Shown here: in pieces, positions 12,759 through 45,630 of the stretch
Position numbering within the stretch: position 1 is the stretch's first letter
How the letters are laid out: every line of letters begins with the position of its first letter
Notes under the pieces: generated by a model
What the model was told of the DNA's origin: nothing
The model's database searches: none
What the model saw: the letters and a program-made list of their open reading frames with translations, nothing else
Assembly (NCBI GenBank): GCA_009996615.1
Contig: JAACZU010000016.1
Location: 32,008 to 96,007, forward strand
Length of the DNA stretch: 64,000 bases
Reading direction: 5' to 3'
From: Rhodanobacteraceae bacterium
GTDB lineage: Bacteria > Pseudomonadota > Gammaproteobacteria > Xanthomonadales > Rhodanobacteraceae
Made by a program: the position numbers and the translations under genes

Positions 12759-14978
12759 ATGTCCGACCCTCCGGTGGCCAACGGGCCCGTCTATCGGGCC
12801 TTCATCAGCTACAGCCACCAGGACCGGCGCTGGGCGGACTGGTTGCACAAGGCGCTGGAAACCTGGCGCGTCCCGCGCCGGCTGGTCGGCCTGACGACTG
12901 CTGCCGGAGTGATCCCGCGCCGCCTGCTGCCGATCTTCCGCGACCGTGACGAGCTGGCCAGCGCCACCGACCTCGGGCGCAAGGTCAACGAGGCGCTGGC
13001 GCAGTCGGCGAGCCTGATCGTGGTCTGTTCGCCGCATGCGGCCGCTTCGCGCTGGGTCAACGAGGAGGTGCTGGCGTTCAAGCGGCTCGGGCGCGGCGAG
13101 CGGATCTTCTGCCTGATCGTCGATGGCGAGCCGAACGCGAGCGACCTGCCCGGGCGCGCGGCGGACGAGTGCTTCTGTCCGGCGCTGCGCCATCGGCTGG
13201 GTGCCGATGGCCGTCTCGGTCCGGAACCCGCCGAGCCGATCGCCGCCGACGTGCGGCCCGGCAAGGACGGCAAGGCCAACGCCAAGCTGAAGCTGATCGC
13301 CGGCCTGCTCGACGTCGGTTTCGACCGGCTCAGGCAGCGCGAGCAGCAGCGCCACCTGCGCCGCCTGATGGCGGTCACCGCGCTGGCGGTGGCCGTGATG
13401 CTGGTCACGACGACGCTGGCGATCAGCGCGGTGATGGCGCGCCGCGATGCCGAGCGGCGCCAGAAGCAGGCCGAGGACCTGGTCGGCTTCATGCTCGGCG
13501 ACCTCGGCGACAAGCTCGATGAGGTACACCGGCTCGACATCATGCAGGCGGTCGACGACAAGGCGATGGCCTACTTCGCCTCGCTGCCGGCGGCCGACGC
13601 GACCGACGCCGCGCTGACGCTGCGCGTCAACGCGCTGGAGAAGATCGGCAACGTGCGCATGGACCAGGGCGCGCTGCCGGCCGCCGTCGAGGCCTACCAG
13701 GCGGCCGTCGCGCTGGCCGGGGAACTCGCGCGGCGCGCGCCCGCCGATGCCGGGCGCAAGGCGGTCTGGGGCGACAGCCTGAAGTGGCTAGGGCAGGCGT
13801 ACTGGTACCAGGGCGATCTCGGCGCCGCGCTGCGCAACTTCGAGTCCGCCGGCGCCCTGCTGCAGGCCGCGCATGCGGCCAGCCCGGCCGACCCGGACCT
13901 CGCTTTCCAACTCGCCGCGGCGCACATCGACAGCGGCCGCGTGCTCGAGGCGCGCGGCGACTTCACCGCGGCGCAGGGCGCCTACGAGGCCGCGCTGGCG
14001 CTGTACCAGGAGCTGGCCGCGCGCGACCCGAAATGGCAGACGTACCTGGGCAGTGCCTGGGACAGCCTCGGCAAGCTGGCGCTGCAGCGCGGCCAGCTCG
14101 AGCAGGCAGTGACCGCCTACCGCACCAACCAGCGCATCCAGTCCGCGTTGGCGGCGCGCACGCCGGGCGACCATGCGCAACAGGAGCACTTGCTGCTCGC
14201 CAATGCGATCCTCGGCCGCACGCTCGGGCTGTGCGGTGAACTGGAGGCTGCGGTGCGCTACACCGACGCGGCCGTGCAGGTGGCCCAGGCGTTGAATGCG
14301 TTCGATCCGGCCGTGATGCCGTGGAAAGACCTTCTGGCGTTGTACAGCCAGCAGCTCGGCGGCCTGCAGCGGCAAGCCGGCCAGCTGGATGCGGCCGCGC
14401 GCCTGGATGCCGAGGCGGTGCGGATCCTCGCGGAGCTGATGGCCAAGGACCCGACCAGCACCGGTTACGCGCAGGATTTCGCGCAGGCACAACTGGAAGC
14501 CGCGCGGCTGCACGTCGCGCGCCATGCCGTCGAAGCCGCGGCGGCACCCGCCGATGCGGCGCTGGCGACGGTGCGCACGCTGCGCGCGCAAAGTCCCGAC
14601 AGCCGCAGCCTGCTCCTGCTGGAAGCTCAGCTCCACCTCGTCCGCGGCACGATTGCCGCGCAGCGCAACGACCTGTCGTCGGCGCGGCGCGAGTGGACGC
14701 AGGCGCGCGACGGCCTCGAGCCGGCGCTGCGCGCCGGTGACGATCCGAACTTCCTCGCCGCCTACGCCGAGGCGCGGCTGCGGCTCGATGACGGCGACGG
14801 CGCGCAGGCGAGCATTGGCAAGCTGGCGGCGATGGGCTACCGCACGCCGGATTTTGTCGCGCTGCTTGAGAGCCGGCAGATCGCCTATCCCGCCAATGCC
14901 GAATTCGCGCAGCGGATCGCCGCGATCATGGACGAGCCGCCGGTGGCACGAACCGATCCCTCCACACCGCCGCGATGA
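12759..14978 (+). CDS. TIR domain - transmembrane - TPR protein
   Basis: The 739-residue protein begins with a TIR-like domain (about 10-160): box 1 YRAFISYSHQDRRWADWLHK, the IFRDRDELASATDL loop, and SRWVNEEVLAF. In the last, Glu103 is four residues after Trp99, as is the catalytic Glu of NAD-cleaving TIR domains. One transmembrane helix (about 204-226) separates it from a long alpha-helical TPR-rich region (about 265-710). The TIR is predicted to face the cytosol. It is the first gene of a three-gene operon with 15053-15436 and 15462-17189. I chose ATG 12759 because the upstream ATG lies inside a CRP-type operator. NADase activity and a defence role are inferences; TIR-TM-TPR proteins could also act in other signalling. 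Confidence 0.85.
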   Translation: MSDPPVANGPVYRAFISYSHQDRRWADWLHKALETWRVPRRLVGLTTAAGVIPRRLLPIFRDRDELASATDLGRKVNEALAQSASLIVVCSPHAAASRWVNEEVLAFKRLGRGERIFCLIVDGEPNASDLPGRAADECFCPALRHRLGADGRLGPEPAEPIAADVRPGKDGKANAKLKLIAGLLDVGFDRLRQREQQRHLRRLMAVTALAVAVMLVTTTLAISAVMARRDAERRQKQAEDLVGFMLGDLGDKLDEVHRLDIMQAVDDKAMAYFASLPAADATDAALTLRVNALEKIGNVRMDQGALPAAVEAYQAAVALAGELARRAPADAGRKAVWGDSLKWLGQAYWYQGDLGAALRNFESAGALLQAAHAASPADPDLAFQLAAAHIDSGRVLEARGDFTAAQGAYEAALALYQELAARDPKWQTYLGSAWDSLGKLALQRGQLEQAVTAYRTNQRIQSALAARTPGDHAQQEHLLLANAILGRTLGLCGELEAAVRYTDAAVQVAQALNAFDPAVMPWKDLLALYSQQLGGLQRQAGQLDAAARLDAEAVRILAELMAKDPTSTGYAQDFAQAQLEAARLHVARHAVEAAAAPADAALATVRTLRAQSPDSRSLLLLEAQLHLVRGTIAAQRNDLSSARREWTQARDGLEPALRAGDDPNFLAAYAEARLRLDDGDGAQASIGKLAAMGYRTPDFVALLESRQIAYPANAEFAQRIAAIMDEPPVARTDPSTPPR

Positions 14979-15052
14979 GCGCCGCAGGTTCCACGGGCGA
15001 TGCGGCCCGCCCTCCGAGCGCCGCGCGGGCAGAATGCAGAAGGAGTCCGATC

Positions 15053-15436
15053 ATGCCGATCCAGGTCAGGCTGGATGTCAACGCCAACCCACCGGTGACC
15101 GTGCAACCGCAGAAGATGGCGGTCAACCGCGGCAACCAGATCGTCACATGGGTGCCGGCCGCGCAGCAGAAGTTCACGTTCGTCTCGTTGACCGGTTTGC
15201 CGACCCCGCCGTTCTCGAAGCTGAGCGTGCAGGACGGGCAGATCACGGTGACCAACGACAATCGCGCCGTCGGCGAGTATCCGTACACGATCGTGGTCAG
15301 CCTCGATGGCAAGCAATACAGCACGGCGGCGTCCGGTGCCGACGCGGGCGCGAAAGCCGGTTCGGCGCTCGCCACCGCCGCCGGCGCCGCCGCGCCGACG
15401 CCACTGATAGCCCGCCCGATCATCGACAACAAGTGA
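15053..15436 (+). CDS. Small beta-rich protein of the TIR operon, function unknown
   Basis: The 127-residue protein has no signal peptide or membrane helix. It is beta-strand-rich: MPIQVRLDVNANPPVTVQPQ, FTFVSLTGLPTPPFSKL and YPYTIVVSLDGKQYST look like strands of a small Ig-like sandwich. An Ala/Gly-rich linker and a short tail follow. ATG 15053 has a strong AGAAGGAG Shine-Dalgarno seven bases upstream, so the longer track version (starting within the TIR stop codon) is unlikely. It lies 74 bases after the TIR gene and 25 bases before the SLOG-like/SLATT-like gene. I do not recognise a family. Confidence 0.75.
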   Translation: MPIQVRLDVNANPPVTVQPQKMAVNRGNQIVTWVPAAQQKFTFVSLTGLPTPPFSKLSVQDGQITVTNDNRAVGEYPYTIVVSLDGKQYSTAASGADAGAKAGSALATAAGAAAPTPLIARPIIDNK

Positions 15437-15461
15437 TCGATCGCCATCGGCATGCAGGTCC

Positions 15462-17189
15462 ATGGCAGTGAGCGCCATCGTTGCCCCGCTGGTCGTCGGC
15501 GTCACCAGCCATCGCAACATTCCCGCACGCGAGGCCGAGGCGATCCGGCGCCGCGTGCGGGAGTTCTTCGCGCAGCTGCAGCACGAGTTCCCCGGCCTGC
15601 CGCTGGTCGTGCTGTCGGCGTTGGCCGCCGGCGGCGACCAGTGGGTGGCCGAGGAAGCGCTCGCGGCCGGGGCGGAGCTGGTCGCGCCGCTGCCGCTGCC
15701 ACCGGCGGCCTACGCAGACGATTTCACCGACGCTGCCAGCCGCGTGGCGTTCGCCGAGCTGTGCCGGCGCGCCCGGGTGCTGCAGCTGCCGGCGCTTTCC
15801 GCGGCCGGCGAGGCCGCCATGCCGGGCGATGCGCGTGACCGGCACTATGCCCAGGCCGGCATCTACATCGCCAGCCACAGCCACATCCTGCTGGCGCTGT
15901 GGGATGGTCGCGAGTCGGACCTGCTCGGCGGCACCGCGCAGGTCGTCCGCTACCATCTCACCGGCGTCATGCCCGGCGCGATCGAGCGGCGCCGCGGCGC
16001 GCAGGCCCTGCTTGGCAGAGGCGACGAAAGCCTCGTCTACCACATCGTGTGCTCGCGCGCCGGCCGCGACGGCGTGGCGCTGCCTCCGCTGCCGCCCCTG
16101 CAGCCTTTGCAGGCGCGCTGGCTGGGCCGCGAGCGCGTGCGCGCGGGCAGCGACGGCATGCCGGCGGAGTTCCGCCTGATGTTCACGCGCATGCGCCAGT
16201 TCGACGAGGACTGCCAGCGCCATGCGGAAAGGATCCGGGCCGATGCGCAGGCGCCGGACGGCACCGCCGCGCAAGCGTCGGATGACCCGATCGACGGCCT
16301 GTTCGCCGCGGCCGACTGGCTGGCGCGGCATTTCCAGCGGCGCGTGCTGCAGGCGCTGCGCAGCATCTATGTGCTGGCCACGCTGATGGGCATCGCGTTC
16401 GTCTGCTATTCCGACCTGCCGACCGACCTGCCGTACCAGGACCATGCGATCTACGTGTTCATCGTGCTGTTCGGCGCCGGCGTGCTGGTGGACCGCGTCG
16501 CACGCCGCCGCGACTGGTACCGCAAGTACATCGACTACCGTGCGCTCGCCGAAGGGTTGCGCGTGCAGCATTGGTGGCGCGAGGCCGGCATTGCGCCGAC
16601 CAGCTCGAGCGGCTTCGCGCACGACAACTTCATGCAGAAGCAGGACATCGAACTCGGCTGGATCCGCAACGTGATGCGCGCGGCCAGCGTGCGCACGTTC
16701 GACGATGCCGCGCCGCCGGACGCCGCGCTGGCAAGGATCGGCGCCGAGTGGATCGGCGCGCCTGGCCACGGCGGCCAGCTCGACTACTACACGCGCAAGA
16801 GCGAGCGCCGCAGTCGCACGCAGCGCCTGACGCGCGGCCTCGGGCGCGCGTGCCTGTGGACCAGCATCGCGATCAGCCTCCTGCTGGCGCTGTTCCAGCA
16901 TCGCATCGGCCCGGACGACACGACCTCGCTGGTGGCGCTGATGGGCACGCTGACGATCATCGCGGCCGCGCGTGAGTCGTATGCCTACCGCAAGGGCGAC
17001 AAGGAATTGATCAAGCAGTACCGCTACATGCACGGCATCTTCGCCGAGGCGCGCCACCTGCTCGATCGCGTGCACGATGCCAACGGCCGCCGCGAGATCC
17101 TGCGCGCGCTCGGCGAGGCGGCCCTGGCCGAGCATGCCGAGTGGGCGCTGATGCACCGCGAGCGGCCGCTGGAGAACGCGCGGTTTTGA
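15462..17189 (+). CDS. SLOG-like domain fused to SLATT-like membrane region
   Basis: The 575-residue protein starts with a Rossmann-like domain whose motifs resemble SLOG nucleotide-binding proteins: VVGVTSHRNI (11-20), LSALAAGGDQ (51-60), then ELVAPLPLP (72-80). After a linker come two pairs of transmembrane helices (about 300-322 and 329-350; about 464-482 and 487-505). Between them is YRKYIDYRALAEGLRVQHWW, which resembles the helix that follows the membrane pair in SLATT/DUF4231 proteins. SLATT domains (SMODS- and SLOG-associating two-TM effectors) are predicted pore-forming effectors in nucleotide-signalling defence systems. The gene is third in the TIR operon, so a TIR-made nucleotide sensed by the SLOG-like domain is an attractive model. 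The domain assignments are from motif memory only. Confidence 0.7.
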   Translation: MAVSAIVAPLVVGVTSHRNIPAREAEAIRRRVREFFAQLQHEFPGLPLVVLSALAAGGDQWVAEEALAAGAELVAPLPLPPAAYADDFTDAASRVAFAELCRRARVLQLPALSAAGEAAMPGDARDRHYAQAGIYIASHSHILLALWDGRESDLLGGTAQVVRYHLTGVMPGAIERRRGAQALLGRGDESLVYHIVCSRAGRDGVALPPLPPLQPLQARWLGRERVRAGSDGMPAEFRLMFTRMRQFDEDCQRHAERIRADAQAPDGTAAQASDDPIDGLFAAADWLARHFQRRVLQALRSIYVLATLMGIAFVCYSDLPTDLPYQDHAIYVFIVLFGAGVLVDRVARRRDWYRKYIDYRALAEGLRVQHWWREAGIAPTSSSGFAHDNFMQKQDIELGWIRNVMRAASVRTFDDAAPPDAALARIGAEWIGAPGHGGQLDYYTRKSERRSRTQRLTRGLGRACLWTSIAISLLLALFQHRIGPDDTTSLVALMGTLTIIAAARESYAYRKGDKELIKQYRYMHGIFAEARHLLDRVHDANGRREILRALGEAALAEHAEWALMHRERPLENARF

Positions 17190-45395: not shown

Positions 45396-45630
45396 GGTGT
45401 AGCTCCAATGCGTGGGCGCACCGCGACGATTCGTCTGGTTTTGCGGTGACGCCCGGGGTTGGGACCTCCACGCATCCGCCGCGTGCGACTCCTCGCGGAG
45501 CACCCCGAACGCGGTGACGATGCGTGTGTGGATTCGGCGAACGTGCCGTACGGCCTTGAGGATTGCCCGGCGGGCCGCATTTTCGTTTCGCCGCCAACGA
45601 CTTGCGAAAGTCGGGCGGCGGAACCGTAAG
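45396..45630 (-). promoter_or_regulatory. Long leader of rpsB-tsf
   Basis: About 235 bases separate the rpsB start from a perfect TATAAT at 45631-45636 (minus strand). In E. coli the rpsB leader binds S2 and represses its own translation, and related leaders occur across gammaproteobacteria. No start codon with a good ribosome site is seen in this stretch. The regulatory role is inferred from position and length. Confidence 0.5.

Follow-up and report, generated by a model that had tools for sequence, protein, structure and literature searches.

A TIR-TPR gene linked to a SLOG-SLATT membrane protein gene in Rhodanobacteraceae, and a C-terminal tail shared by partners of membrane TPR proteins

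A 64,000-nt stretch of a Rhodanobacteraceae genome (hereafter the window) carries a three-gene operon encoding a TIR-TPR protein, a small protein and a predicted SLOG-SLATT membrane protein, which raises the question of what such a combination does and whether its parts belong together. The original prediction described it as a candidate three-gene defence system in which the TIR protein makes a nucleotide signal sensed by the SLOG-like domain. We find that the TIR-TPR and SLOG-SLATT genes are linked across many loci, and that the small partners are a previously unremarked set of proteins with a common short tail, which travels with the TPR sensor domain of the receptor. The more surprising finding is this set of membrane TPR receptor partners marked by their tail. 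We judge it slightly better than an even bet that the whole works as a two-step alarm, in which a TPR/tail cassette controls a TIR signal that is read by a SLOG sensor and acted on by a SLATT effector.

Architecture of the operon

Coordinates are positions in the window, and labels of the form L### and G### denote comparison loci and genomes, respectively. The operon comprises:

12759..14978 (+): gene 1, a TIR-transmembrane (TM)-TPR protein of 739 amino acids (aa), the proposed receptor and signal maker
15053..15436 (+): gene 2, a small partner protein of 127 aa with a strand-rich body, matching Big_9 only at E 0.065 and with no signal peptide seen
15462..17189 (+): gene 3, a protein of 575 aa with a SLOG domain and two SLATT-like membrane modules, the proposed signal sensor and membrane effector

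Re-reading of the coordinates bore out the gene positions, the single strand and the gaps of 74 bases (genes 1 and 2) and 25 bases (genes 2 and 3) given originally, and the ATG of gene 2 at 15053 lies closely 3' of AGAAGGAG, a good Shine-Dalgarno sequence. Within gene 1 the following features were delimited:

12792..13163 (+): TIR domain, residues 12-135 (TIR_2 E 6.5e-13, ThsB_TIR E 1e-8)
13053..13067 (+): W99-x-x-x-E103 of the TIR domain, assessed for conservation in homologues
13356..13412 (+): single membrane helix, residues 200-218, assessed for topology by flanking charge
13626..14918 (+): TPR sensor region, residues 290-720, where gene 1 diverges most

The TIR_2, ThsB_TIR and TPR models all score above their Pfam cut-offs, in agreement with the predicted TIR-TM-TPR order, while the only PADLOC match of gene 1 is ThsB (E 0.045). 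Absence of Glu103 from homologues would have refuted the original prediction, but this residue is present in 77 of 77 homologues ungapped at the position, as is Trp99 in 76 of 76. Lysine and arginine residues are more frequent before the membrane helix than after it (means of 5.3 and 3.0 in homologues), and this excess places the TIR domain inside the cell and the TPR region, by prediction, in the periplasm. Median pairwise identity is 63% for the TIR domain, 50% for SLOG and 54-55% for the SLATT modules, compared with 29% for the TPR region.

Gene 3 divides into three parts:

15486..16127 (+): SLOG domain, approximately residues 9-222, from its VTSHR, GGDQ, RDR.YA, WDG and GGT motifs and its predicted fold
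16296..16574 (+): first SLATT/DUF4231 module of two membrane helices, residues 279-371 (DUF4231 E 4.2e-6, over cut-off; SLATT_3 below)
16776..17144 (+): second module of two membrane helices, SLATT_1-like, residues 439-561 (NCBIfam SLATT_1 E 2.5e-6, below cut-off)

Membership of the SLATT/DUF4231 group, as proposed originally, is upheld by a DUF4231 score of 27.6 bits against a Pfam cut-off of 24.7. The SLOG assignment gains its support from structure: no sequence library searched names this part of the protein and a Protein Data Bank sequence search with gene 3 returned nothing useful, whereas an AlphaFold model (mean predicted local distance difference test score, pLDDT, 80.8) has YpsA (DUF1273), DprA, ShosA and LOG-type proteins as its nearest solved folds in Foldseek (2nx2, 3uqz, 8zva and 5mll on top; 2iz7, 1rcu and 1weh later). 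With a best E value of 1.4e-3, the assignment holds at fold level only, and at that level the modelled domain is a Rossmann-type fold nearest to YpsA, DprA and LOG and thus falls within the SLOG superfamily. The domain calls are nonetheless above chance, because gene 3 proteins from different families of the order are 39-54% identical and have the SLOG and SLATT motifs unchanged. By inspection, its GGTAQVV segment lacks the PGGxGTxxE form of LOG enzymes, which suggests from the residues present that this SLOG domain is a sensor; the YpsA-like SLOG clade has been reported to include sensors of cyclic ADP-ribose (PMC9503650).

Linkage of gene 1 and gene 3

Relatives of gene 3 occur in 13 of 61 genomes, including that of the window. 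A species-level collection of genomes yielded at least 279 stretches with such a relative, the best 80 being mostly from Xanthomonadales. Linkage was assessed in 93 loci picked by gene 3 alone, four of which are duplicates between the two collections. A TIR-TPR gene of the family of gene 1 is present in 71 of these, and its position varies between upstream on the same strand, divergent and downstream of gene 3, so that linkage between the two genes has been maintained through rearrangement. The other 22 comprise 6 loci cut by a contig end, 4 with a different TIR (L021, L025, L026 at about 5 kb, and L028), 1 with an unassigned large partner (L074) and 11 orphans. In L028 (3224-9792) a SIR2-TIR fusion gene, an nSTAND1 gene and a gene 3 relative form one run, which is a STAND-gated version of the same output, and a second TIR type (FVSYARADKARVAPLVAAIEAKGWSVWWDPEI) lies near gene 3 in L021 and, downstream of gene 3 and in tandem, in L064 and L070. 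Pairing of gene 3 with these other TIRs and with the SIR2-TIR fusion strengthens the case for a TIR signal that a SLOG sensor reads and a SLATT membrane effector acts on, which is the best available account of the two genes.

The expectation that all three genes would be kept together held for genes 1 and 3. It failed for gene 2, which was rejected as a conserved third component as the bodies of the intervening proteins vary across loci.

A tail shared by the partner proteins

The proteins encoded between genes 1 and 3 have widely different bodies, including several strand-rich families, acidic disordered chains of 47-53 aa and a few with signal peptides, and nearly all end in (D/N)PxIxN followed by 0-9 residues. 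The window form is:

15410..15433 (+): C-terminal tail ARPIIDNK of gene 2

About 85 tail proteins were counted after some 8 of 93 pattern matches were dropped as chance (singletons in unlikely frames). In these loci the strict tail ends 63 of 13,419 open reading frames (ORFs) of at least 40 codons, all 63 of which lie within 1.5 kb of a TIR-TPR gene or gene 3, compared with none of 7,743 distant ORFs (Fisher 2e-24). In 148 genomes of the family the DNA pattern for NPxIKNx-stop matched 26 times, compared with once for its reversal, and all 26 matches have a TPR gene or gene 3 within 1.5 kb. Some operons encode more than one such protein: extra signal-peptide tail proteins of 65-68 aa stand beside another tail protein in L039 (9297-9494), L040 (9654-9854) and L081 (9438-9644), and the first two also have a short disordered one. 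A model of gene 2 from a 9-row alignment reached a mean pLDDT of only 40, so no fold is claimed for it, and a Protein Data Bank sequence search with a tail protein yielded nothing useful.

We rejected an assignment of the tail to the SLOG-SLATT protein, since tails are absent beside orphan gene 3 copies, beside other TIR types and in L028, yet accompany TIR-TPR genes that have no gene 3 nearby, as well as genes in which the head before the same TM-TPR part is a protein kinase or an nSTAND1 NTPase. In a wider sample, in which head domains were typed by simple motifs and some left unassigned, a tail gene lies directly downstream of 15 of 21 TIR-TM-TPR genes, 8 of 11 nSTAND-TM-TPR genes and 2 of 4 Ser/Thr kinase-TM-TPR genes, compared with 10 of 1,575 control ORFs that end in this pattern. 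The tail is therefore linked to the membrane TPR region across three output types.

A protein ending in DPQxxN directly follows an nSTAND1-TM-TPR gene in L199, L201, L207, L208, L210, L123, L130 and L260. The last of these, from another order, is a clear member of the Pfam family DP-EP (PF08985), ends in DPQMINRRPG and follows a Trans_reg_C-nSTAND1-TM-TPR gene. From its tail and gene order, this family of unknown function appears to be an outlying branch of the tail proteins. DP-EP matches among the tail proteins are weak (6 of 22, best E 5e-4), most of them, gene 2 included, have none, and a search of 61 relatives found no member, so DP-EP membership is not claimed for the Xanthomonadales tails.

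Similarity among the middle proteins tracks that of the TPR region (partial r 0.77, permutation P 0.0005, 33 loci), with partial r values of -0.12 for TIR, -0.07 for SLOG and 0.18 (weak) for SLATT in the same loci. Several sets of TIR-TPR and partner genes accompany one gene 3 in some loci, and in such tandems the paired TIR domains are alike (0.75-0.90) and their TPRs different (0.27-0.64), several TPRs being closest, together with a matching partner, to those of another species (the first TIR gene of L036 to L054; the second of L064 to L078).

Distribution and locus history

In the genus of the window the operon sits between rnhB and a sulfatase gene, and these two genes are adjacent in L176, L179, L181 and L182; given these empty sites in four congeners, the operon is a discrete insertion. 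Decay is also seen: G006 carries a remnant at another site (L027:7649-8330, G006:C50), where an internal deletion has brought codon 394 of gene 3 directly behind codon 45 of the TIR, and in L053 (3150-4823) a gene 3 relative is broken into two frames, which may reflect decay or misassembly. In the Lysobacter group, intact orphan gene 3 copies stand beside metH in L087, L089, L091 and L105, while L084 and L092 hold both a TIR gene and gene 3 there, which suggests loss of the TIR end and retention of gene 3. The sites lie among housekeeping genes such as dapE, metH and lpx neighbours.

Proposed mechanism and relation to known systems

In the reading that we favour, the operon would encode an alarm of two steps, similar to Thoeris and with a front end that can be exchanged. 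Gene 1 would be a receptor with a cytoplasmic TIR enzyme, one membrane helix and a TPR sensor predicted to be periplasmic, and gene 2 would engage the TPR through its (D/N)PxIxN tail, either keeping the receptor silent or presenting a bait. Disturbance of the partner or of the envelope would be the trigger, with phage infection as the favoured candidate, upon which TIR domains would assemble and convert nicotinamide adenine dinucleotide (NAD+) into a nucleotide signal. Binding of this signal to the SLOG domain of gene 3 would cause the SLATT helices to open or assemble, permeabilising the inner membrane and stopping growth. A broader proposal, to which we give rather less than even chances, is a general receptor cassette of membrane-anchored TPR and co-encoded (D/N)PxIxN partner that serves TIR (to SLOG-SLATT), winged helix-turn-helix (wHTH)-nSTAND and Ser/Thr kinase outputs, with variable bodies as baits and threat specificity changed by exchange of the TPR/partner pair.

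The nearest system for logic is Thoeris. In its form with a SIR2-SLOG ThsA, the ThsB TIR makes 3'-cyclic ADP-ribose, which is sensed by the SLOG domain of ThsA (PMC11204291); the operon resembles it in the adjoining TIR and SLOG-bearing effector genes, the conserved TIR Glu and the ThsB_TIR Pfam match, but differs in having a membrane SLATT effector instead of SIR2, a membrane-anchored TIR with a TPR sensor and an extra tail-bearing partner. Thoeris with a TM-macro ThsA also combines a TIR signal with a nucleotide-binding membrane effector (PMC11204291), whereas here the sensor is SLOG, not macro, and there are four SLATT-type membrane helices. Profile, PADLOC and fold searches found no SIR2 or macro match in gene 3, and we do not file the operon as Thoeris because gene 3 has neither ThsA architecture. 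Some SLATT proteins have already been predicted to be nucleotide-responsive membrane effectors or pores beside TIRs, and TIR-SLATT neighbourhoods have been reported in firmicute phages (PMC7159879, PMC9503650). Gene 3 is like the SLATT/DUF4231 predicted effectors of the SMODS/SLOG/TIR network, with two membrane helices each, in being a putative membrane effector beside nucleotide-signal enzymes, and unlike them in holding SLOG and two SLATT-like modules in one protein. Neither the linkage of TIR-TPR with SLOG-SLATT nor the tail was found in the open-licence papers searched.

If this reading is true, SLOG-SLATT would be a third effector type in TIR-nucleotide signalling, and natural TIR/SLOG pairs would become available for finding new NAD-derived messengers. 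The tail would in addition be a simple sequence handle for finding the partners of a large group of membrane TPR receptors, and a short peptide would allow direct tests of what these receptors sense.

Weighing the interpretation

Several observations weigh against the two-step alarm. The window tail, RPIIDN, is an outlying form, and SLATT_3 and SLATT_1 fall below cut-off in both Pfam and NCBIfam. Eleven intact gene 3 orphans, some beside metH, have no nearby TIR, so gene 3 may work by itself or with a TIR encoded at a distance. Only about 9 of the approximately 85 partners begin with what looks like a signal peptide, which sits poorly with the prediction of a periplasmic TPR; either the partners are exported differently or the topology has been called wrongly. 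The correlation between TPR and partner could come partly from exchange of one contiguous block of DNA, since the TPR-coding end of gene 1 is the one next to gene 2; the association of the tail with different output domains is not explicable by block exchange. Inspection by eye of the flanking genes found no defence islands, the flanks being housekeeping. The label of a three-gene defence system consequently overstates the evidence, as gene 3 has no PADLOC match and no relatives of it were found in the viral contigs and plasmid collections searched. As a whole, the original prediction is partly supported, in that its domain calls and the association between genes 1 and 3 withstood all tests, among them the refuting conditions set with it, and its mechanism is plausible.

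The same hardware could instead be a housekeeping switch for envelope stress or kin recognition, with the TPR and tail sensing the envelope and the TIR-SLOG-SLATT arm adjusting permeability or triggering programmed death. Stable sites among housekeeping genes, the lack of viral or plasmid copies in the searched collections and the use of related TM-TPR/tail pairs to drive kinase and wHTH-nSTAND outputs all speak for this, but patchy presence, empty sites, internal-deletion decay in one congener and a fast-diverging TPR are reminiscent of conflict genes, and we consider such a switch unlikely. Many bacterial TIRs deplete NAD, and the TIR itself might kill in this way with gene 3 as a modulator or an independent protein, consistent with gene 3 orphans and with TIR-TPR genes found without gene 3. 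We give this little credence, given that gene 3 is retained beside several kinds of TIR and in several orientations, with one copy per set of tandem TIRs. We are about as doubtful of a role independent of the TPR, in which the tail would mark proteins for secretion, sorting or degradation. Most partners lack signal peptides, and leaderless secretion is known to use C-terminal tags, but the partners that have a signal peptide retain the tail, and tails accompany TM-TPR genes with any of the output domains and are absent from gene 3 orphan loci.

Peptide communication of the RRNPP kind would make the tail a released or presented ligand for the TPR. The middle proteins would then be carriers or pro-peptides, and the operon would sense density or kin. 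RRNPP systems likewise consist of adjacent propeptide and receptor genes (PMC10075063), and the likeness extends to a TPR receptor that adjoins a small gene whose conserved part is its C-terminal end; several partners, moreover, consist of a disordered chain of 47-53 aa with the tail at its end, and signal peptides occur in a few. RRNPP receptors are, on the other hand, cytoplasmic and Gram-positive, whereas those considered here are membrane-anchored and Gram-negative with enzymatic heads, many partners have folded-looking bodies of about 100 aa that vary with the TPR, and a tail near-identical between species is poorly suited to specific communication, which leaves this explanation improbable.

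Elsewhere in the window, positions 45458-45548 (-) match the Rfam t44 RNA.

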